In this document: positions 50,749-61,683 of the stretch, in pieces
How the letters are laid out: the number at the start of each line of letters is the position of its first letter
Position numbering within the stretch: the stretch's first letter is position 1
NCBI GenBank assembly: GCA_029262055.1
Contig: JAJDAD010000013.1
Location: 62,001 to 126,000 of the forward strand
Length of the DNA: 64,000 bases
Source: Candidatus Zhuqueibacterota bacterium
GTDB taxonomy: Bacteria > Zhuqueibacterota > Zhuqueibacteria > Oceanimicrobiales > Oceanimicrobiaceae
Direction: 5' to 3'
Position numbers and translations under genes: made by a program
Notes under the pieces: model-generated
Told to the model about the DNA's origin: nothing
Database searches by the model: none
What the model saw: the letters and a program-made list of their open reading frames with translations, nothing else

Positions 50749-50786
50749 AAAAAGAGAAAGGCCCCTCATCACAAGGAGCCTTTCTC
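50749..50786 (-). terminator. Rho-independent terminator after the 219-residue membrane protein gene
   Basis: On the minus strand GAGAAAGGCTCC-n9-GGGGCCTTTCTC pairs over 11 of 12 positions and is followed by TTTTT. It ends the envelope unit before serB. Confidence 0.85.
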
Positions 50787-50821: not shown

Positions 50822-51481
50822 CTACGGGCCAGTTCCTAAATTGTTGCCACGGGATCGAACAATTAAGCAGATCCCGGCGACAATCAGCCCAACGGGCAAG
50901 AGCAGCCGCGACACCCACCAATCTGTACAGGCCATTAGAATAAATGCGCCAAGACCCAGACAGGAAATGGCTGGGAATATGGCCCAGTCCAGGCTATTTT
51001 GCGCTGTTCTGAGCAGATACAGGGTTCCAAAAGTCAAGCCCAACCCAAAAAAGAACACACTGCCCAGCACCTCCTCAGGAAAGACGTCAATGAGTTCCAT
51101 CAGGATCATGGCGCCAATGGTAAAGGTGACGCCGGCCGGAAGCAGCGGCCACCACCGGCTTTGGTCACGCACAAAAAGATAGCCGAATACAGAGGCCATT
51201 ATCCAAAACAAGAGGACCCCAATGAAATCCTCGGGGATAACATGCGTACTATCTATCAGAATCGTGATGCCAATAAAGCCGGCAACAGCAGCCAGGACCA
51301 GCTCTCTCACGGAATCCTTTTGAAGGAACCTTCCAAGCCAGAAAGCCGCAAGCGCGAGAAAACACAACGCCACCAAAAGCCCGGGGTCCACATAAAACCG
51401 ATCCAGATTGTTCAGCAACAAGATGGTCCCGGCTAACATAATCATAATGCCCGGGACTATTCTACTACTTCGCTCAGTCAC
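50822..51481 (-). CDS. Multi-span membrane protein (DUF5668/LiaF-TM-like)
   Basis: The 219-residue protein has seven or eight hydrophobic segments with short loops. Helix pairs such as GIMIMLAGTILLLNNLDRFYVDPGLL and GFIGITILIDSTHVIPEDF repeat a loose pattern of two helices plus a short amphipathic loop about three times; this resembles the LiaF-TM/DUF5668 repeat, a weak match. The GTG at 51481 is chosen because AGGAGGT lies six bases upstream; the longer TTG start has none. It ends the envelope-protein unit. Function unknown. Confidence 0.7.
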   Translation of the reverse strand: MTERSSRIVPGIMIMLAGTILLLNNLDRFYVDPGLLVALCFLALAAFWLGRFLQKDSVRELVLAAVAGFIGITILIDSTHVIPEDFIGVLLFWIMASVFGYLFVRDQSRWWPLLPAGVTFTIGAMILMELIDVFPEEVLGSVFFFGLGLTFGTLYLLRTAQNSLDWAIFPAISCLGLGAFILMACTDWWVSRLLLPVGLIVAGICLIVRSRGNNLGTGP

Positions 51482-51494
51482 CTTGGGACCTCCT
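51479..51494 (-). promoter_or_regulatory. Strong ribosome-binding site that fixes a GTG start
   Basis: AGGAGGT (51494-51488) lies six bases before GTG (51481-51479). This decides the start of the membrane protein at 51481. Confidence 0.7.
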
Positions 51495-51609
51495 CTGATT
51501 AAGGGTCTCAATTGATTGCAGTGTCATGCAAAATTGGGGGGATACACTGAAGAAGAGGTACGGAAGCAGGTCACTGGTTGTTTCGCGTTCAGCACAACCT
51601 TTAGCAACC

Positions 51610-53289
51610 TCAGAAGTGGTAGCCTAGCTCCAACCCGATGATAGTATTTCTGGAATCTCCGGTGTCATCCTTTTGACTCCGGTCATCGTCCATGTTGGCG
51701 AGCAGGTTGAATTGCCAGTTCTGGTTGATGCTCCAGTTCAGGAAAAAGATAATTGAATTGATATTACGGTCGGAAAACAGATTGAAGTCCCGCACATCGT
51801 TCGTCGGGGAATTGGGATAACGCCGTAGAAGGTATGATTCCTGCAAACTCAACAGAAACCCATTGACGTTAAAAAAATCTATCTTCAATACCGGCCCGAC
51901 TGCATAGAAATCTTCAAACTGAATGCTGATGGCCGACTCAGCGTCGACTGCATTGAGGCGTGGGACCAAATTCTGATGTGTTTCCCTTTCATAATGTATG
52001 CCCGCGCTGATGCGCCAGGACACGCTCGGTTTCAGGTACAATTCCGGCTCAACTTCCCAGTCGATGAAATCCGGCAAACTGCTTGCACTCAGAAAATCAT
52101 ATTCGCGCTTGTTGACGCCGCCCTGCAATTCCAGCCCAAACACTTTGGCAAGCTTGAAGTCTATATTCCCCCAAAAGTAGTTTTCCCAATAATCCTGAAA
52201 GAAGTGGCCTGCGGGCACATTGCTGTAGTCGCGGACCCGGAAGTCATTTTGCAGTCGAAAATCAGTAAAGCCGCCTATCGACTGTTCCCACAAGACTTCG
52301 AGACGATTCTCGCGGTAATCGTTTGTTTCGAAATCACCATGTTTACGAACGACATTGCGGTAGCTCAAATTAAAACTGCTATTCATGCCGAAGTGTAATC
52401 CGCCGGCGCCAAGGAACGTGTTGATGTAATAATTGGGATAGGCGCTGTCGGACTCTGCGTAAGAGCGGAGCAGGAAGTCATCTTGCGCGGTCAGCTTGAG
52501 CACCCCGACACGAAAATCAACCCTTGCGAGTGATTGATTCTGTAAATATTTCAAGTTGAAATCGCGAAAGAACGAGGTGCCTTCAAGGCGATTTTGCAGC
52601 TTCCAGTTGACGAATTCTCCGGCAGAGCTTGTCAGTTGCAGGTCCGCTTCCCCAGTCAAGTAGTCCCGGCTGTATTTGAAAAAGGTCGTACCCCGCAAAT
52701 TTGTTTGCTTACCATTTGCATAATCAAGATTGAAGCGCACGCCAGTGAAAGGATTGCCGCTACCCTCGAGGTACGTGCTGTCGGTGTCCAGAAAACGGAA
52801 ATTGAACTCCTGGCGCCACAAATCAACGCCGGTGATCGCTTCGCGTGACCAGTCGAATCTCGGTGTTTGTGTCAAGGCTCCGACCGGATAAGCCACCTGC
52901 CCGGTGCTTTGGAATGTACTTTGGTCCCTGGAAGGAGATATTTCCCAGCTCGCAATCAGGTCCCAAATGGTCTCCATCCAGACGTTCGCCATATAAAAGT
53001 CGCCGGCAGCGGCAAAGTCTGTGACCTCTTTCAGAAGCTGGGAGATTTCGACGGACAGGACTGGGTCATCTTGTATGGCCGGGTTTTCCTGCACCCAGCG
53101 CTTTAAGCGCAGAATGTTAATGCGATAGTAGGTCTCTTCTTCCCACGCCTGCTTTGTCAGAGAATCCGTCTCTGCTATTTCCCCAGAATGGAGGCTTTCA
53201 CAGATTGCGTAGTCCGGACCTGTATTTTGGCTAATGATCAGGTGGGTAAGGATGACAGAGATAAACAGTTTGACTGAGGTGTTAAGCAA
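51610..53289 (-). CDS. Outer-membrane beta-barrel protein with N-terminal helical domain
   Basis: The 559-residue protein starts at a TTG with AAGGAAAG upstream. A signal-like hydrophobic stretch (VKLFISVILTHLIISQ) precedes a helical region (about 45-115: ILRLKRWVQENP..., AAAGDFYMANVWMETIWDLI) similar in style to the units of the 511-residue repeat protein. From about residue 145 to the end, many short amphipathic strands with aromatic residues (FNFRFLDTDSTYLEG, DFRVGVLKLTAQDDF) indicate a barrel, ending in LELGYHF, a typical C-terminal Phe for BamA recognition. I do not recognise the family. Confidence 0.75.
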   Translation of the reverse strand: MLNTSVKLFISVILTHLIISQNTGPDYAICESLHSGEIAETDSLTKQAWEEETYYRINILRLKRWVQENPAIQDDPVLSVEISQLLKEVTDFAAAGDFYMANVWMETIWDLIASWEISPSRDQSTFQSTGQVAYPVGALTQTPRFDWSREAITGVDLWRQEFNFRFLDTDSTYLEGSGNPFTGVRFNLDYANGKQTNLRGTTFFKYSRDYLTGEADLQLTSSAGEFVNWKLQNRLEGTSFFRDFNLKYLQNQSLARVDFRVGVLKLTAQDDFLLRSYAESDSAYPNYYINTFLGAGGLHFGMNSSFNLSYRNVVRKHGDFETNDYRENRLEVLWEQSIGGFTDFRLQNDFRVRDYSNVPAGHFFQDYWENYFWGNIDFKLAKVFGLELQGGVNKREYDFLSASSLPDFIDWEVEPELYLKPSVSWRISAGIHYERETHQNLVPRLNAVDAESAISIQFEDFYAVGPVLKIDFFNVNGFLLSLQESYLLRRYPNSPTNDVRDFNLFSDRNINSIIFFLNWSINQNWQFNLLANMDDDRSQKDDTGDSRNTIIGLELGYHF

Positions 53290-53463: not shown

Positions 53464-56400
53464 TTACTTCACCATAAGCATCGTGCGGGACAGGCGGAAA
53501 CTCTCACCTGCCTTCAACTGAAAAATGTAGATTCCCGTGGCCACTTGCCGACCGGACGCATCCTTGCCGTCCCACCTGACGGTGTATGAGCCGGCATTTT
53601 GCGGTGAGTTGACCAACGTGCGGATTTCCTGACCCAGCATGTTGAAAATCTTCAATGTTACGTCAGAGTTTCCGGCCAGCTGGTACTGAATGTTCGTTTC
53701 CGGATTGAACGGATTCGGATAGTTCTGGGCAAGGCCAAAGCGCACCGGCACCTCGGGTCCGTCGGTGCTGACCGAGGTGATGTTATCCTCGTCCAGAGTC
53801 AGGTTCACTTCTCCCGCATCTTCACCGCCACCCACGGAAACAGGTGCGGCATTGTCGTCATTGGTGCCGCCAAAGAAGGAGTCCTCGTAACCGGCGCCGG
53901 TCGCCTCGACTTTGTAAGCGCCGGCCTGCAGACCGGTAAGCACGTAGTTACCGTTGACATCCGTCGTGGCGTTGACCTCCACTTCGCCATCAAGGCGGGC
54001 ATGCACCAAAATGCCGTCCAACCCACGACCGTCGCTGCGACGGACCTTTCCACGAATCGCGTAGATGCCGTCACGTTGCGCCGGGTCCAGGCCGAAGTTG
54101 ATACCCGTAGTAGTCGCGCCATCCGAACCAACAAACACCGGATCAGCGTTCTTGAAGCGTTTCGCGTTCTTATAGAATTCCCCGACAAACTCTTCCGCCC
54201 AGGCGAAGACATAGTAACGGCCGGCCGGGAGGTCGGTTATTCGGTAGAAACCCCGGGGACCGGTGAATGTGAGGTGCGGCACGCGGTTTTTCGGTGAAAC
54301 AGCAATGACCACAGCGCCGTGCAACGGCGCATCATCACCGGTTGAAACCACGCGTCCCGCGATAGTGCCTCTGGTATCGCGATGCGGCACGAGATAGAAA
54401 TCGATATCCGGTGTCTCGTTTGGTGCGACAACTTCTACTCCTGTGGCGTCACGTCGATGCCGGGCATTCTCGTAGAATTGCGGGAAAAAGCCCTCCGCGA
54501 CCACGCGTACAAAGTACTTTCCGGTCGGCAGGCCACCAAACTCGTAGTCGCCGTCTTCGTTGGTGTAGCTGCGAACGTGGCGCCCACTGGTACTGTCAAA
54601 CACAACCACCAGTGCTTTTGGCACGGGCAGACTATCAACGTTTGATGCAACAGTGCCACTGATGCTGCCACCTTGAATGAGCGTAAAATCAATACCGGTT
54701 ACGGGAATGTCTTCCGCCACCACGACCGGTGTCGCCTCTCGCTTGCTGGCCACATCATCATAAAATTCAGGTAAATAGCTGTGAGCATTCGCAACTACCA
54801 GATAGCTGCCGGCGCGTACATTCTGGATAACATAATTTCCGCTGGAATCACTGCGAGCCCGAAACCCATCTTTGTGCGCGGCCAGATCAGCATGCCGGTG
54901 CTCCCTGTGAGCCACAACCACAGCTCCGGGGATCGGGTTGCCTGTCAACTCATCAGTTACTGTTCCGGAAATCGTGCTGCGTGGAGAGAGAGCAAAGTCG
55001 ATACCGGTTGTGTGTGAATCGGCTTTCACTGCAACCGTGGTTGCATCTCTCCGCTCATTTGCATCGTCGTAAAACTCCCCGTTAAAACCCTCGGCAGAGG
55101 CGAACAGGATGTAGCTCCCCGGCCTAACCTCGATCAGGTAGTTGCCGTTCTCGTCCGACCGAGTTTCCCTCAGGACATGCCGGTCAAGACGTACGGAACT
55201 GGGCCGGCCGTAAACCACTATATGGGCGCCAGCAATAGGTGCGCCGTCAACTTGACTGGTCACGGTACCCTGAATTCCGGACGTCATTGCCAGGCCAAAA
55301 TCGATGCCAGCGACGGTGTTTGGTTCATCGACATCCACAAAAGCCGCACCTGCCAATGAAGGCGAATCGTCATAGTACTCACGCTTGTAACCATTGGCGT
55401 TGGCCCGGACTGCGTAAGACCCGCTAGGCAAAGCCTCGAAACCGTAGTTGCCGGAGCTGTCCGCGACAGCGTGCCGTGCAAGACGTGGGTTGACCACCAG
55501 GAATGCCACCACATGCGCTCCCGGCAGAGCAGCGCTGTCACCATCAGCAAAGACAGATCCAAGGATCTTCCCGCCTTCACTCAGACCAAAATTGATGCCG
55601 CTTACCGTATCACCTTCGGCAACATTTTGTGGGGTAGCCTCCAGATAGTTGCGGGTATTGTCATAAAACTCTCCGATGAATCCTCTTGCTTTGGCCGTAA
55701 TGACATAGATCCCGGGAATCAGCTCGCCCAGCACGTAGTCACCGCTGGCATCACTCTGCGCATGCTGGATCCACCGCACTCTGCCCAGGCGAACCGCACG
55801 GACGTTCGCGCCCTCAATGGCGCCGCCGGCATCGCTCACAATATTTCCGGTTATCGCAGCCGTGGCCGCTGGACTGACCACAACATGAGCGCTGGCCCTG
55901 AGCCGCAGCCCGTCTATCTCCACGTGAGCGACTACTCTGCCGTGGCCTACTTCCTGGCCTGCCGTGAAGAGACCGTCCGCATCGATTGTGCCCAGGCCTT
56001 CAGGTACGACTTCCCAGCGTACAAATGCCGGCCTGATGGCGACATTAGCCCGGGACACCACCACGTGAAACTGCTTTTCCGCCCCGGCAGGCACCACGGC
56101 TCTACCCGGTACAACCTTCAGATCGAAAAAACGTCTGGGCAGGCGGCCAATGCGGATCTCGATTTCTTTGATAATCACACGATTGCCGACATGGATGGCA
56201 ACCCGGATGGTTACTTTGCCGGCATGCCTGCCTGCGATAAAGAATCCGTCGTCAGTGATGGTACCGAGGGTATCCGGGGAGACGATCCATTCGACTCTAT
56301 CGGCATCCACTTGTGTCCGATTGTTCGCATTAATGGCAAATGGAAAGACCTCAATCTGCAGGCCTTGTCCGACCTCAAGTTCGGCTGCATCCGGTGTGAC

Positions 56401-56493
56401 GATTGCATCTAGGTCCTGGGCATGGGCCGTGCCCGGGGAGATCGTCAAAGCCAGTGCTGCGAGAATGATCATACTGATTCTCAAATGCTTCAT
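53464..56493 (-). CDS. Exported protein with seven CarboxypepD-reg-like repeats and T9SS/FlgD-like C-terminal domain
   Basis: The protein has 1009 residues from the ATG at 56493 (GGAGA eight bases upstream). Order: signal peptide (residues 1-26, ending AHA), two Big-like Ig domains (about 30-110 and 115-205) and seven carboxypeptidase-regulatory-like beta repeats of 85-105 residues from about 210 to 900. Each repeat starts I.G.V....P..GA.V and ends [EQ]FY-x9-AT-V...-GI.F.L. A C-terminal domain begins NYPNPFNPETNI and continues through the FlgD/T9SS pattern (GYY-like WDGKDASGRQVATGIYIFQL). Such a C-terminus is a sorting signal for the type IX secretion system in FCB bacteria, but no T9SS gene is in view. 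Likely a cell-surface adhesin or scaffold (inference). Confidence 0.85.
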   Translation of the reverse strand: MKHLRISMIILAALALTISPGTAHAQDLDAIVTPDAAELEVGQGLQIEVFPFAINANNRTQVDADRVEWIVSPDTLGTITDDGFFIAGRHAGKVTIRVAIHVGNRVIIKEIEIRIGRLPRRFFDLKVVPGRAVVPAGAEKQFHVVVSRANVAIRPAFVRWEVVPEGLGTIDADGLFTAGQEVGHGRVVAHVEIDGLRLRASAHVVVSPAATAAITGNIVSDAGGAIEGANVRAVRLGRVRWIQHAQSDASGDYVLGELIPGIYVITAKARGFIGEFYDNTRNYLEATPQNVAEGDTVSGINFGLSEGGKILGSVFADGDSAALPGAHVVAFLVVNPRLARHAVADSSGNYGFEALPSGSYAVRANANGYKREYYDDSPSLAGAAFVDVDEPNTVAGIDFGLAMTSGIQGTVTSQVDGAPIAGAHIVVYGRPSSVRLDRHVLRETRSDENGNYLIEVRPGSYILFASAEGFNGEFYDDANERRDATTVAVKADSHTTGIDFALSPRSTISGTVTDELTGNPIPGAVVVAHREHRHADLAAHKDGFRARSDSSGNYVIQNVRAGSYLVVANAHSYLPEFYDDVASKREATPVVVAEDIPVTGIDFTLIQGGSISGTVASNVDSLPVPKALVVVFDSTSGRHVRSYTNEDGDYEFGGLPTGKYFVRVVAEGFFPQFYENARHRRDATGVEVVAPNETPDIDFYLVPHRDTRGTIAGRVVSTGDDAPLHGAVVIAVSPKNRVPHLTFTGPRGFYRITDLPAGRYYVFAWAEEFVGEFYKNAKRFKNADPVFVGSDGATTTGINFGLDPAQRDGIYAIRGKVRRSDGRGLDGILVHARLDGEVEVNATTDVNGNYVLTGLQAGAYKVEATGAGYEDSFFGGTNDDNAAPVSVGGGEDAGEVNLTLDEDNITSVSTDGPEVPVRFGLAQNYPNPFNPETNIQYQLAGNSDVTLKIFNMLGQEIRTLVNSPQNAGSYTVRWDGKDASGRQVATGIYIFQLKAGESFRLSRTMLMVK

Positions 56494-56697: not shown

Positions 56698-58233
56698 TTA
56701 GTTTTTCGGTACATATTTCAAACTCTTTCTTAACAACTCAAAAGACACCTGAATACCTTCATTGGCGGCACGATAGTCGCCTTTGCGAAAAGAATCCTCT
56801 GCCAGGCGCTTAATAGCCCGGGCGCTCTGAAGCAATTGTAAACTCCAATTCTCCATCGACTCCACAACTCTGCTCTCGGCGTCCACCAGGGCCGTTTCGA
56901 GCTGCTTCAGCCGAACCTCGGTTTGCGCGCGAGTCTGGCGACCGGCGCCGTCATCGCTCGTCACCTGCTCCGCACGCGACAAAAACCTCTGCGCCGCGAG
57001 AACCGCCTCCAGTGCGACCCGACTGAAGCCAGCCGCGGACGCCTGCTCGGCACGCTGCAACGCAAACTCGGACATGCGTAGCAGTGTGCCAGCATCCCGT
57101 GGTGTATCAGCGTGCATGTTCTGGCGCACAGCGGCGATATCGCTTCTGGTATTCTCAATCTCCCGGAGAACTTTTTTATTGAAGGGTCGCCTGGATTGGG
57201 CGGCAGCAAGTCGATTTGCCCGTCTGATCATGTTTTCGGCCAACTCCAGCTTGGTCATGACGAGCTGTGTATTGCCTGCTTTGGCGGCAGCCTCAGCATC
57301 CATCACAAACCTGCTGGCACGCTCCAATATTCGCTTCGCCGCCGGGGATTGGCTGGCCCTGACTCTGTCACGCGTCTCCTGCAATAGTTCGTGTACCCGA
57401 AAAAGTACGCTGCTCGGCTGATCAGTGTGTCCGGGCGAATCACTCCGGGCCAGATCCGTTGCGCGCAACAGAAGCAAACTTGCCTGATTTAACAACGTCT
57501 TGGTTAAGTCAACATTGCCGTTTCTGAAAGTGGTTTCGGCTGATTCGTATGTTCTAAGCGCTTGCTGGAAAATCAGTTCTGCCTGGCGATTCCCGTGTTG
57601 GTCGATAAGTTGACGGGTGTGATCACGCAGGACCTCAAATTTTCGTTTCTCCTCGCGTAAATGATCAATGATAGTGTCAACAGAACGAGCAGAAAGCTGA
57701 ATCGCCCTCTCTGCCAAAGTGATCCCAACTCGAAAGTGCTCCGCGGCCTTGTCCGCTGATGCAGCCGTGGCAGCGCGTTCCCCGGAATCACGATTCTTCT
57801 TTGCCTCATTCAAAGTTCGCTGCGCCTCGCGATTTCGACTATGAGGAACAGTTTCGTCCGCTTTTCTAAGCAATTCCTCCAATCGGCTGCGCAGGCGCCG
57901 CACCGGACCATCGAGTGCCAGTTGGGCGGCGGCCATCAGTCGCGCTTGCGCTAGCTTAATCTTGGCGGCTGCTTCCGTACGGTCGCGGCGGGTAGGACGA
58001 TCCTTGTGAATGAGATTTGCTGCTTCGTCACGTAATTGCTGCGCTTGCTGCACCAGACGAATGGCGCGGTCATTGTTAAAAGAGGTCACCAGCTCTTGCG
58101 CTCTCGCCAGGTCGCGATCAAGCCTTGTTAAGGCTCGCGTCAAATCCACCAGGGTCTGTGCCGAGGCCGGGGTTATACCGCTCACATTGAAAGTAAAAAG
58201 AAAGAGAAATGTATACAGACAGATTCTCAACAT
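56698..58233 (-). CDS. Secreted alpha-helical repeat protein
   Basis: The 511-residue protein has a signal peptide (LRICLYTFLFLFTFNVSG...ASA). The rest is almost entirely helical, with about six degenerate units of 70-80 residues. Typical unit: L..A...R..AE.A...GN..LV...L..A..L..RA (for example near residues 300-345 and 380-425). The repeat suggests a rod or antiparallel helical stack, perhaps anchoring outer-membrane parts. The sequence is Ala- and Arg-rich; family not recognised. It is the first gene after the sigma-54 promoter at 58277-58291 and shares the operon with the surface protein and barrel. Confidence 0.8.
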   Translation of the reverse strand: MLRICLYTFLFLFTFNVSGITPASAQTLVDLTRALTRLDRDLARAQELVTSFNNDRAIRLVQQAQQLRDEAANLIHKDRPTRRDRTEAAAKIKLAQARLMAAAQLALDGPVRRLRSRLEELLRKADETVPHSRNREAQRTLNEAKKNRDSGERAATAASADKAAEHFRVGITLAERAIQLSARSVDTIIDHLREEKRKFEVLRDHTRQLIDQHGNRQAELIFQQALRTYESAETTFRNGNVDLTKTLLNQASLLLLRATDLARSDSPGHTDQPSSVLFRVHELLQETRDRVRASQSPAAKRILERASRFVMDAEAAAKAGNTQLVMTKLELAENMIRRANRLAAAQSRRPFNKKVLREIENTRSDIAAVRQNMHADTPRDAGTLLRMSEFALQRAEQASAAGFSRVALEAVLAAQRFLSRAEQVTSDDGAGRQTRAQTEVRLKQLETALVDAESRVVESMENWSLQLLQSARAIKRLAEDSFRKGDYRAANEGIQVSFELLRKSLKYVPKN

Positions 58234-58276: not shown

Positions 58277-58291
58277 GCAAAGCGGGTGCCA
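58277..58291 (-). promoter_or_regulatory. Sigma-54 (RpoN) promoter for the envelope-protein operon
   Basis: The minus strand reads TGGCACCCGCTTTGC, one mismatch to TGGCACG-N4-TTGC, with GG (58290-58289) and GC (58278-58277) 10 bases apart. The start is expected near 58265, about 32 bases before the ATG at 58233. It is adjacent to the gene for an NtrC-type activator, encoded directly upstream. Confidence 0.78.
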
Positions 58292-58392
58292 AACTCACAA
58301 AATTGACGACAATCAAATAATAAGCTTGAATAACAGCTACTTAGAGGGCACCCGGCTTCTGGTGAAACTCGGAGAAGGCAGAACTGGACCGT

Positions 58393-58416
58393 GAGGTACA
58401 ACTTGAAATGTACCTC
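58393..58416 (-). promoter_or_regulatory. Palindromic candidate enhancer site upstream of the sigma-54 promoter
   Basis: GAGGTACA-acttgaaa-TGTACCTC is a perfect 8-bp inverted repeat with an 8-base spacer, centred about 140 bp upstream of the predicted start site; a partial third half-site, GTACATCTC, follows. No T-run follows on the minus strand, so it is not a terminator for the regulator gene. It fits a binding site for the NtrC-type regulator encoded next to it. Confidence 0.55.
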
Positions 58417-58461
58417 CAAGTACATCTCGTGAAATCCGGACATCGCGCGAAGCAACGAAGG

Positions 58462-59805
58462 CTATCCAAGCCGCTCCATCATCGAGTAAAGCTTGCGCCG
58501 CGTGATTCCCAGCAACTTTGCGGCACGACTCTTATTGCCACCAGCTTTTTCAAGCGCGTTTTCGATCAGCTGTTTTTCGACCTGTTCCAGCGACAAGCAA
58601 CCGTCGGGAATCTCAAGCGATGTTCCACGTGCGGGCGTCAGCCGGTTCTTTACGTGCACAGGCAGGTCGTCTACCACAACCTTGTCCGTATTTGCCATGA
58701 TGGTTGCACGCTCGATTATGTTTTCCAACTCGCGGACGTTGCCTGGCCAGGCATATTTCAACAGATAGTTTAGGGCATCACCTTCGATGGCATCTTCCGC
58801 TTTCCCGAGCTTGTGCAGGAAGTGCGAGACCAGGCTCGGGATGTCTTCGGCGCGCGCACGTAAAGGAGGCAGATTGATGGGAAAAACATTGATGCGATAG
58901 TACAGATCTTCACGAAAGGAGTGCTCCTGCAGCATTTCCTCTAAATCCCGGTTTGTCGCCGTAATGGTGCGGGCTTTGATCTGTATGGTCCTGGTCCCGC
59001 CGACACGCTCGATTTCCCGGTTTTGCAGGACGCGTAGCAGTTTCACCTGGGTCGCCTGCGACAGCTCACCTATTTCATCCAGGAAGATTGTGCCGGCTCC
59101 AGCCAGTTCAAAGCGCCCGACTTTCATTTTGTCGGCCCCGGTAAAGGCGCCTTTTTCGTGGCCGAAAAGCTCACTTTCCAGCAGGCTCTCAGGCAGCGCA
59201 CCACAGTTGACCGCGACGAAAGGCTCGGAAGCGCGCCGGCTTTGATGGTGAATCGCCTGCGCCACCAACTCCTTGCCGGTGCCGCTCTCGCCCCGTATCA
59301 GGACCGTAGCGTCCGTGGGTGCAACCTTGGCGACCATTTTGTAGACCTGTTGCATCGGGCCGCTCATGCCGACCATATTCTGCAGAGAGAAACGATCCTG
59401 CAGCCGTCGTTTGAGCTGCCGGTTTTCCGAGGTTAAATCCCGCTTTTCCATGATGTGCTGCACTTTGAGCTTCAGCTCATCCATCTCGAACGGCTTGATG
59501 ATGTAATCGTAAGCCCCCTTCTTCATGGCCTCCACTGCATTCTGCGCCGATGCGTAGGCTGTCATCAGGATGACTTCCGCTTCCGGGTTTTGTTTCTTAA
59601 CCTGCTCCAGCACGAAAAGGCCATCCTTGCCCGGCATCTTGAGATCAGTCAACACCAGGTCAAACTCGCCGTTGGCGAATGCCGCCACCCCTGTTTCAGC
59701 GTTCTCGGCCGTAGCCACAGCGTAGCCGACCGGCTCAAGCGTAAACCGAAGAATCTTGCACATTTTGGGTTCGTCGTCGATGATGAGGATGTTACCTTTT
59801 GGCAT
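58462..59805 (-). CDS. NtrC-family sigma-54-dependent response regulator
   Basis: The protein has 447 residues: receiver domain (about 1-120) with acidic pocket DDEP, phosphorylatable Asp in LVLTDLKMPGKDG and the switch Lys in IIKPFE; AAA+ domain (about 140-375) with RGESGTGKE Walker A and GAFTGAD, the loop that contacts sigma-54; C-terminal Fis-type helix-turn-helix (NKSRAAKLLGITRRKLYSMM). It activates sigma-54 transcription when phosphorylated by the kinase encoded 37 bp upstream. The sigma-54 promoter 170-185 bp downstream of its stop codon makes the envelope operon the most likely target. Confidence 0.95.
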   Translation of the reverse strand: MPKGNILIIDDEPKMCKILRFTLEPVGYAVATAENAETGVAAFANGEFDLVLTDLKMPGKDGLFVLEQVKKQNPEAEVILMTAYASAQNAVEAMKKGAYDYIIKPFEMDELKLKVQHIMEKRDLTSENRQLKRRLQDRFSLQNMVGMSGPMQQVYKMVAKVAPTDATVLIRGESGTGKELVAQAIHHQSRRASEPFVAVNCGALPESLLESELFGHEKGAFTGADKMKVGRFELAGAGTIFLDEIGELSQATQVKLLRVLQNREIERVGGTRTIQIKARTITATNRDLEEMLQEHSFREDLYYRINVFPINLPPLRARAEDIPSLVSHFLHKLGKAEDAIEGDALNYLLKYAWPGNVRELENIIERATIMANTDKVVVDDLPVHVKNRLTPARGTSLEIPDGCLSLEQVEKQLIENALEKAGGNKSRAAKLLGITRRKLYSMMERLG

Positions 59806-59842: not shown

Positions 59843-61192
59843 TCAAACCGGCAGAAAAACCCGCATCTTCGTCCCTTGGTTTTCGGCACTCTGCACGTCG
59901 ATCCAACCGTTGTGTTTGTCCACCAGCCGCTTACAGATGGCAAGGCCAAGCCCGCTCCCCGCGGTTTTGGTTGTGTAAAACGGCTCGAAGATCAGGTTTT
60001 GGTCCACCTCAAAGCCGCAGCCGGTATCCACGATCTCAAGCCGCACGACACGTTTGCGTTTGCGGGAATCGTTCTTGAGAAGGACACGCAGGGTACCTCC
60101 GCCGTTCATGGCCTGAATCGAATTCAAAGTGAAATTCAAAATGAGCTGGTTGATCGCATCCTCATCGTGCGGGACTGCACGAATATCGTCGTAATCGCGC
60201 TCAAGCGTGACGTTGGCCGCGCTCATCTCATCCGCAAGCGAAGTCAGAGATCGATCGACGGAACCGCGCAAATCGGTCGCCCTCTTTTCCAACTCCCGGT
60301 CGCGTGCGAAAGTCAGGAAATCGCTCACAAGCCGGTTGAGCCGGCGCACTTCGCTGGGAATATAGTCGAACAGCTCGTCCTCATCCTCGCTGCTCGCATA
60401 TTTTGACTTGAGCACGTCTGCCGTACCTTTGATGATACCGAGGGGGTTGCGAATTTCGTGTGCCACGGTAGCGGCCATTTGCCCCATGGCAGCGAGACGC
60501 TCGCTCTTCCGCAGCGATTCGTGCGTTTTGATCAAGAGAGAAATGGCCCAAAATAAGAAAATCGAAAAGAGCAGGGCCAGCGTAAGCGCAACCAATCCCC
60601 CGAAAATCAGACCTCGTTGAAACACACCTAACAGGTCAAAAAAATCGGCGCTGGCCTGCACAACAACCACGCCCAGGACATCGTTAAGCGGTCCACGGAT
60701 CGGCGCGTAGGCGCTCTTGAAACGATTGCCGGCCACTACCTGCATGGGCGCCACGGCGGCGATTCCGGTGAGCGCCCGGTTTACCCAAACGCTGTCCTCT
60801 TCCAGAAAAGACAGGCGCTCCCCCGGCCGGAACAGGCCCGGGCTACCGGCGATGACGCCATAGTCAGCGTCAACCAGATAGACGCCTTGTAATTGATTTT
60901 CATCATGCACATCGCGCAGAATCTTAGTCAGTTCCGGCATAACGAGCGGTAACCGGTCAGATTCAATGTCGTATGTGAAATCACCAAACTCGACAATCCC
61001 GGAAGTCAGGGTCGCCACGGCATGTAAACGTGTGCCAAGCTCCTCTTCCAGGTAGTCGCCCATGTCCTGCAAAAACCGCCAGGCGCCGATGGTAAAGCCG
61101 AACAGAACCAGGACGGTGAGGCCGATCATACCCGTAACCATTGCCTTGCGGCGGCCCAACAGTTTCTGGTCCAGGTGTGGGGCGGAATTCAT
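59843..61192 (-). CDS. Membrane-bound sensor histidine kinase (NtrB/HydH-like)
   Basis: The 449-residue protein has two membrane helices (about 15-37 and 205-230) flanking a periplasmic sensor of about 165 residues of the Cache type (GVYLVDADYGVIAGSPGLF). A HisKA domain with H-box VAHEIRNPLGII follows, then an HATPase domain with N-box LNFTLNSIQAM, DTGCGF and GSGLGLAIC. The ligand is unknown. ATG at 61192 overlaps the preceding stop as TGATG and is chosen over the longer frame to 61228. It partners the response regulator encoded 37 bp downstream. Confidence 0.94.
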   Translation of the reverse strand: MNSAPHLDQKLLGRRKAMVTGMIGLTVLVLFGFTIGAWRFLQDMGDYLEEELGTRLHAVATLTSGIVEFGDFTYDIESDRLPLVMPELTKILRDVHDENQLQGVYLVDADYGVIAGSPGLFRPGERLSFLEEDSVWVNRALTGIAAVAPMQVVAGNRFKSAYAPIRGPLNDVLGVVVVQASADFFDLLGVFQRGLIFGGLVALTLALLFSIFLFWAISLLIKTHESLRKSERLAAMGQMAATVAHEIRNPLGIIKGTADVLKSKYASSEDEDELFDYIPSEVRRLNRLVSDFLTFARDRELEKRATDLRGSVDRSLTSLADEMSAANVTLERDYDDIRAVPHDEDAINQLILNFTLNSIQAMNGGGTLRVLLKNDSRKRKRVVRLEIVDTGCGFEVDQNLIFEPFYTTKTAGSGLGLAICKRLVDKHNGWIDVQSAENQGTKMRVFLPV

Positions 61193-61683
61193 CAGTCCTT
61201 GCTCTCCTGCCCAAATATGCGCAGCCACTCTGCAAGTTCGTCGTCGGACAACTCCTTGCCGTACTTTTCCCGCATTGTCTCTACCTTGTGCTTCTTATTG
61301 ATTGAATCGTAAAACTGACCCGAGGCCACAACGCCGGCGCCTTGCGCTTTGGCAAATTCGACAATCTCACGGTCATCGCTTACGACCTGCAGCGATTTCT
61401 TATGCGCCGCTCGCAGAACAAGCTGTTTGATAACCGCATCGGCTTTTACCGGCCGCCGGGAAAACACGACCTGCAAGCGCCGTGCCTGCAAAGCAGCCTC
61501 TACTTCCGGCAGCGCCTGATCCCCGTCAAACACGACTACAACCTGCACTTGTTTTGCAGCGGTGAGCCCCCGCAATTTCGTCAGCAATTGTCCACGGGCG
61601 GTCTCCAGGCTGGCTTGCAAATGCCGGCTGAGTTCCGGCACGGCGTGAATCAAGTTGTAGCCGTCGATGATGATCTTATTCAA
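61192..61683 (-). CDS. NYN-domain endoribonuclease-like protein (YacP/Rae1-like)
   Basis: The 163-residue protein begins NKIIIDGYNLIHAVPEL, the PIN/NYN Asp motif, with VVFDGDQA and VVSDDREIV supplying further acidic residues of the nuclease site. YacP (Rae1) of Bacillus cleaves mRNA on the ribosome; other NYN proteins act on tRNA or rRNA. The start is TTG with AGGGGA seven bases upstream, overlapping the dapF stop. Confidence 0.88.
   Translation of the reverse strand: MNKIIIDGYNLIHAVPELSRHLQASLETARGQLLTKLRGLTAAKQVQVVVVFDGDQALPEVEAALQARRLQVVFSRRPVKADAVIKQLVLRAAHKKSLQVVSDDREIVEFAKAQGAGVVASGQFYDSINKKHKVETMREKYGKELSDDELAEWLRIFGQESKD

Follow-up and report, generated by a model that had tools for sequence, protein, structure and literature searches.

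A candidate sigma-54-controlled cell-envelope operon around a seven-repeat surface protein of a KSB1-type bacterium

The window analysed here, a stretch of 64,000 nucleotides from a Candidatus Zhuqueibacterota genome, carries four genes on the (−) strand for which we use the names HELIX (positions 56698–58233), TARGET (53464–56493), BARREL (51610–53289), and TMP (50822–51511); f1, f2, and so on are working labels for families within the phylum of the window. TARGET is an intact open reading frame of 1009 residues with an N-terminal signal peptide, and the coordinates and frame given for it in a preliminary description were correct. Its N-terminal part consists of two Ig-like domains of the Big_2 or Leptospira Lig-like kind (55858–56415, (−); Pfam Big_2; profile match 8gyr, E 6e-8), followed by an array of seven CarboxypepD_reg units (aa 214–901; 53791–55854, (−)) defined by Pfam and by repeat alignment, and by a C-terminal T9SS type A sorting domain with the sequence NYPNPFNP (53467–53745, (−)). 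The seven carboxypeptidase-regulatory-like units proposed earlier are thus recovered by Pfam as seven stretches of PF13620 (269 bits, above the curated cut-off), and the proposed T9SS/FlgD-like tail exceeds the cut-offs of TIGR04183 (47.3 bits, cut-off 23), Por_Secre_tail (34.5, cut-off 27), and Pfam FlgD_ig (50.2, cut-off 27).

A PDB search with the single TARGET sequence gave no match; in the profile search, the repeats matched the prealbumin-like modules of NOMO2 and SdrD, and the N-terminus matched a Leptospira Ig-like protein. TARGET shares this repeat fold with the CarboxypepD_reg, SdrD B-like, and NOMO prealbumin-like proteins but, unlike SdrD and NOMO, has neither a wall anchor nor an ER context. 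An MSCRAMM identity was ruled out, the SdrD and SdrC models scoring far under their cut-offs, as was identity with the anammox S-layer protein Kustd1514 (83 bits against a cut-off of 1400). The resemblance to T9SS type A cargo (TIGR04183/Por_Secre_tail) includes the signal peptide, the beta-sandwich domains, the sorting domain above the curated cut-off, and a host with SprA, PorU, and PorV-family proteins; TARGET differs from such cargo in that it is a single conserved orthologue whose array of seven repeats is fixed and whose gene is linked to HELIX and BARREL in most carrier genomes. Taken alone, TARGET is a bacterial surface protein with an ordinary export route and a new member of an already known protein type. 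Other large proteins combining CarboxypepD_reg and sorting domains are encoded elsewhere in the host genome (G000:C54:25745-28492 and G000:C16:36240-37523, where the open frames measure 1039 and 1080 aa).

The host genome, that of a KSB1-type bacterium, encodes one SprA (SprA_N, 90.8 bits, cut-off 27), one PorU (845 bits, cut-off 420), and 12 PorV-family proteins above cut-off, and it contains 116 sorting-domain matches. On the basis of the type A tail and of these T9SS genes, we infer that TARGET is exported to the surface by the type IX system. The same route had been suggested in the preliminary description, and the PorV/SprA-type genes, whose absence would have counted against it, are present.

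The repeats share a recurrent motif, which had been described as [EQ]FY-x9-AT in all seven units. The motif is real and recurrent, but the quoted example, GEFYDDANERRDAT, has the spacing FY-x8-AT, and the strict form [EQ]FY-x8-AT occurs in only four of the seven units (repeats 1, 3, 4, and 5); repeat 2 reads EYY...AA, repeat 6 reads EFY...AD, and repeat 7 has a degenerate form, SFF. Across 222 orthologous repeats, the Ala is conserved in 95% and the Glu in 68%, the position after Tyr is Asp in 47%, and the next position is Asp in 27% and Asn in 26%; the acidic positions of the motif are not strict.

Near-full-length orthologues of TARGET (about 990–1060 aa, E ≤ 1e-100) were found in 44 of the 82 genomes of the window's phylum, and its close named relatives come from genomes of candidate division KSB1, a group proposed as Zhuqueibacterota (PMC11683472). 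The nearest neighbour of a single repeat was the repeat of the same number in 218 of 222 cases and a repeat of the same protein in only one of 222, and the mean identity was 39% between repeats at the same position across proteins versus 30% between repeats within one protein. Because the motif is inherited position by position, it stands well beyond chance, and the comparison of repeats indicates that the array is ancient, has been inherited as a unit, and predates the classes of the phylum. Proteins of WOR-3, CSSED10-310, Zixibacteria, and Ignavibacteria carry the motif too, and repeats of looser kinship were found in Nocardioides and Planctomycetota. Shorter orthologues of 692 and 809 aa, which have fewer repeats, lie in the same gene setting at L138:7006-9084 and L071:8251-10680.

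HELIX (56698–58233, (−)) is a protein of 511 aa with a signal peptide and six three-helix units of ~80 aa. In its AlphaFold model (mean pLDDT 88.9), three-helix bundles follow one another as a chain, and the six units are mutually homologous (HHalign 94–99% between units). The fold search against the PDB gave no significant match. A reading of HELIX as a HEPN nuclease was dropped, as it depended on one marginal match (23.7 vs 22 bits); since family members also match MIT, DUF357, SMBP, and other Pfam entries besides HEPN, the scattered matches suggest a generic three-helix bundle.

BARREL (51610–53289, (−)) has 559 aa, and its AlphaFold model (mean pLDDT 78.6) comprises an N-terminal domain of three helices and then a predicted outer-membrane barrel of 20 strands, for which the PDB fold search returned generic barrels only (TM about 0.4). 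Pfam and NCBIfam, with Pfam run on 18 members, gave no family for BARREL, and neither the HELIX nor the BARREL family has a firm assignment in these databases. There was no Pfam match to the plug and receptor domains of TonB-dependent receptors, the fold match being to the barrel only. The N-terminal helical domain resembles the HELIX units weakly, with HHalign probabilities of 60–78% at best against 7.8% for the best reversed control, which is suggestive of a possible kinship. Slam and PorP/SprF are likewise outer-membrane barrels adjoining the gene of a surface protein; BARREL differs from them in that none of the 18 members matches PorP_SprF, only one of the 18 matches SlipAM, with an E-value of 0.0085 that is near chance and does not make the family a member of Slam, and 20 strands are predicted. 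The TMP gene (50822–51511, (−)), which is kept after BARREL in relatives, encodes a small membrane protein with a weak LiaF-TM resemblance (Pfam, 23.1 bits, below cut-off).

Upstream of HELIX lies a gene for an NtrC-type response regulator (58462–59805, (−)) with receiver, sigma-54 activator AAA+, and Fis HTH domains in Pfam and a GAFTGA loop that can be read in the translation. A sensor histidine kinase gene (HisKA and HATPase_c; 59843–61228, (−)) stands next to it; the two genes are also neighbours in family f1 and, in inverted form, in another class (L160), and we presume the kinase to be the partner of the regulator. A YacP-like NYN gene (window 61192–61683) runs into the start of the kinase gene, and in L160 the YacP–kinase–regulator block is retained next to the cassette in inverted form.

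The gap between the regulator gene and HELIX contains a near-consensus sigma-54 −24/−12 promoter, TGGCACCCGCTTTGC (58277–58291, (−)), which starts 58 nt upstream of the HELIX start; the published consensus is TGGCAC-N5-7-TTGCT (PMC12316311). About 100 bp upstream of this site, beside the regulator gene, are two tandem palindromic putative enhancer sites 24 bp apart (58385–58424, (−)), TGTACTTGGAGGTACA at 58409–58424 and TGTACCTCACGGTCCA at 58385–58400, each with one mismatch to TGTACC-N4-GGTACA. The tandem pair occurs only here in 1.26 Mb (about 22%) of the host genome and not at all in the shuffled sequence. The host genome encodes rpoN (PF04552, 210 bits). At the other end of the operon, after TMP, lies an intrinsic terminator with a 15-pair stem and a T run (50754–50786, (−)), the strongest of 10 in the 9.5 kb scanned.

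We scored relatives for a sigma-54 site of at least 12/14 within 200 nt upstream of a gene. For HELIX, 18 of 27 relatives had such a site, whereas shuffled sequences gave 0.5 on average and 3 at most; for TARGET, BARREL, and TMP the counts were 2/37, 5/34, and 0/24, respectively. The enhancer palindromes, usually spaced 22–24 bp apart, precede HELIX in 24 of 27 relatives, against 2.7 on average and 7 at most after shuffling. It should be noted that the scoring scheme and thresholds were set after the first site had been seen, so the evidence in these counts lies in the shuffles and neighbour-gene controls and is not that of an independent prediction. Palindromes also precede the HELIX genes of two Calditrichota loci and, in L160, the first gene of the cassette, which encodes a lipoprotein; in front of HELIX in the Calditrichota pair, no sigma-54 site scored as high as the threshold, although the palindromes are present. 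The anatomy of promoter and enhancer is legible in the DNA itself, and this regulatory region, missed in the preliminary description, is the most informative part of the locus. Binding of the regulator to the palindromes and transcription from TGGCACCCGCTTTGC would follow from this anatomy.

The order HELIX–TARGET–BARREL is syntenic in most relatives and is often followed by TMP, SerB, and SelA. Other classes of the phylum have lipoprotein–TARGET–HELIX–BARREL, and in family f2 a lipoprotein gene lies between HELIX and TARGET; the gene order thus varies between classes, yet the cassette genes remain linked. Among 82 genomes, 42 carry both BARREL and TARGET, 3 and 3 carry one alone, and 34 carry neither, the exceptions being mostly at contig edges. 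The Fisher p for this co-occurrence, with shared ancestry ignored, is about 4e-16 with corrected counts, to which three short or edge copies were added and from which two N-terminally incomplete ones were dropped, and 1e-11 with uncorrected counts. BARREL and TARGET lie on different contigs in family f8, two f5 genomes have TARGET without BARREL, and some genomes carry HELIX without either. In the second phylum, which includes genomes labelled Calditrichota, BARREL is present in 29 of 40 genomes, and both Calditrichota loci inspected read HELIX–lipoprotein–BARREL, the lipoprotein standing in place of TARGET. No credible BARREL was found among the 296 Bacteroidota genomes sampled. The association of TARGET with helical and barrel genes, noted earlier for this one locus, is therefore backed by synteny and co-occurrence, and the search for these companions in other genomes found HELIX and BARREL in relatives within the phylum and in Calditrichota as well. 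The four-gene outer-envelope operon is old and extends across two little-studied phyla.

The putative lipoproteins that belong to the cassettes of Calditrichota, and to those of several families in the phylum of the window, make up a family of 305–353 aa with no Pfam match and with a conserved motif, IDN-T-I...YNS..W, near the end (L160:5358-6293, L168:7727-8707, L169:10629-11609, and L059:11087-12148). Where HELIX occurs without TARGET, its upstream neighbour is an open reading frame of ~735 aa (L151:6118-8325, L154:6057-8264, L157:4037-6241, and L162:5821-8019), which we take, from inspection by eye, to have a cysteine desulfurase-like start and a selenophosphate synthetase-like end. With this frame upstream of lone HELIX genes and SelA after the cassette elsewhere, HELIX repeatedly adjoins selenium genes.

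On balance, we consider it probable that the locus is a signal-controlled cell-envelope operon in which the kinase, the NtrC-type regulator, and sigma-54 drive HELIX, TARGET, BARREL, and TMP and in which the first three proteins act together as a scaffold. Judging from the anatomy of the region, the envelope-facing kinase would activate the adjacent regulator, which would bind the two palindromes, and sigma-54 polymerase would then produce a single transcript of the four genes that ends at the hairpin. TARGET would be secreted by Sec, exported by T9SS, and cut by the PorU sortase, forming a rod of about nine beta-sandwich domains on the surface; HELIX would be a jointed helical rod in the periplasm, and BARREL would be an outer-membrane protein whose small helical domain points towards the periplasm. 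HELIX, TARGET, and BARREL may together build a scaffold on the surface or across the envelope, whose role would most likely be in attachment or surface architecture, with HELIX and BARREL as the old core to which TARGET would have been added in the KSB1-type phylum. A single assembly of the three proteins is favoured by their linkage across two phyla; the relocation of BARREL in f8 and the lone HELIX genes of other families argue against it. Also counting against the reading as a whole are the f5 genomes with TARGET but no BARREL, the weakness of the resemblance between the helical domain of BARREL and the HELIX units, the sub-threshold sigma-54 scores at the Calditrichota loci, and the TARGET orthologues with fewer repeats.

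A simpler account is that TARGET is an ordinary T9SS-exported, adhesin-like protein that shares a promoter by chance with two unrelated envelope genes and takes part in no joint structure. Such proteins are abundant, as the 116 sorting-domain matches and the CarboxypepD_reg-type proteins at C54 and C16 illustrate, and HELIX and BARREL do occur without TARGET in Calditrichota. Chance sharing fits poorly with the co-occurrence of BARREL and TARGET, with genes that stay linked while their order is rearranged across classes, and with one-to-one orthologues that keep a fixed repeat array, and we regard this account as rather unlikely. The preliminary description had suggested a repeat expanded in this lineage that could bind calcium. 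Asp and Asn are indeed frequent in the EFYD[DN] stretch, but the acidic positions are just 27–66% conserved, no conserved acidic set was found, and the SdrD and SdrC models score far below cut-off; calcium sites in the repeats are not supported. The expansion is rejected by the repeat-index test, in which 218 of 222 repeats keep their number and appear older than the phylum's own classes, and the broad spread among unrelated carriers named earlier as evidence against it was found for the motif, which is present in WOR-3, Zixibacteria, CSSED10-310, and Ignavibacteria; the reading as a whole is very improbable.

Alternatively, BARREL could be a dedicated outer-membrane exporter or anchor, somewhat like Slam, for a surface lipoprotein as the ancestral partner or for TARGET, with HELIX as a periplasmic holder. 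The lipoprotein gene that separates HELIX from BARREL in the two Calditrichota loci inspected and its presence in the cassettes of f2, f14, f15, and f16 agree with this, as do the single SlipAM match and the modelled architecture of a helical domain followed by a barrel. That match is isolated and near chance, however, the model has 20 strands and the Slam barrel 14, TARGET already has an export route of its own, and no lipoprotein gene was found in the window; we consider such an exporter improbable. A broader form of the scaffold reading, in which HELIX, BARREL, and a surface partner (the lipoprotein in Calditrichota, TARGET in KSB1-type bacteria) form a previously undescribed trans-envelope surface apparatus common to two phyla, with its own switch of kinase, NtrC-type regulator, and sigma-54, is possible, and we put it forward tentatively. 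The earlier idea of an undescribed surface structure gains support, in the form of a candidate assembly.

The operon resembles known NtrC-family/sigma-54 envelope operons in its −24/−12 promoter, tandem palindromic enhancers, linked GAFTGA regulator, and rpoN, and differs from them in that the controlled genes come from unassigned families. We found no description of this palindrome or operon in the literature searched, which left subscription papers mostly outside, and no paper on KSB1 together with type IX secretion; the Caldithrix abyssi genome paper mentions neither type IX secretion nor sigma-54. What is new is an operon with two families lacking firm Pfam assignment and with its own regulatory element, and the kind to which it belongs, the sigma-54-controlled envelope operon, is known.

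Next to nothing has been learned so far about the surface of the cells in these uncultured members of the FCB group. The locus joins mostly unassigned protein families to regulatory wiring that is legible in sequence, namely a defined palindrome, a sigma-54 promoter, and a linked regulator. The promoter and the putative regulator-binding sites offer a point of entry from which an uncharacterised surface structure can be put to the test, and this wiring opens a direct route to the regulon and to a test of function in a culturable Calditrichota relative.
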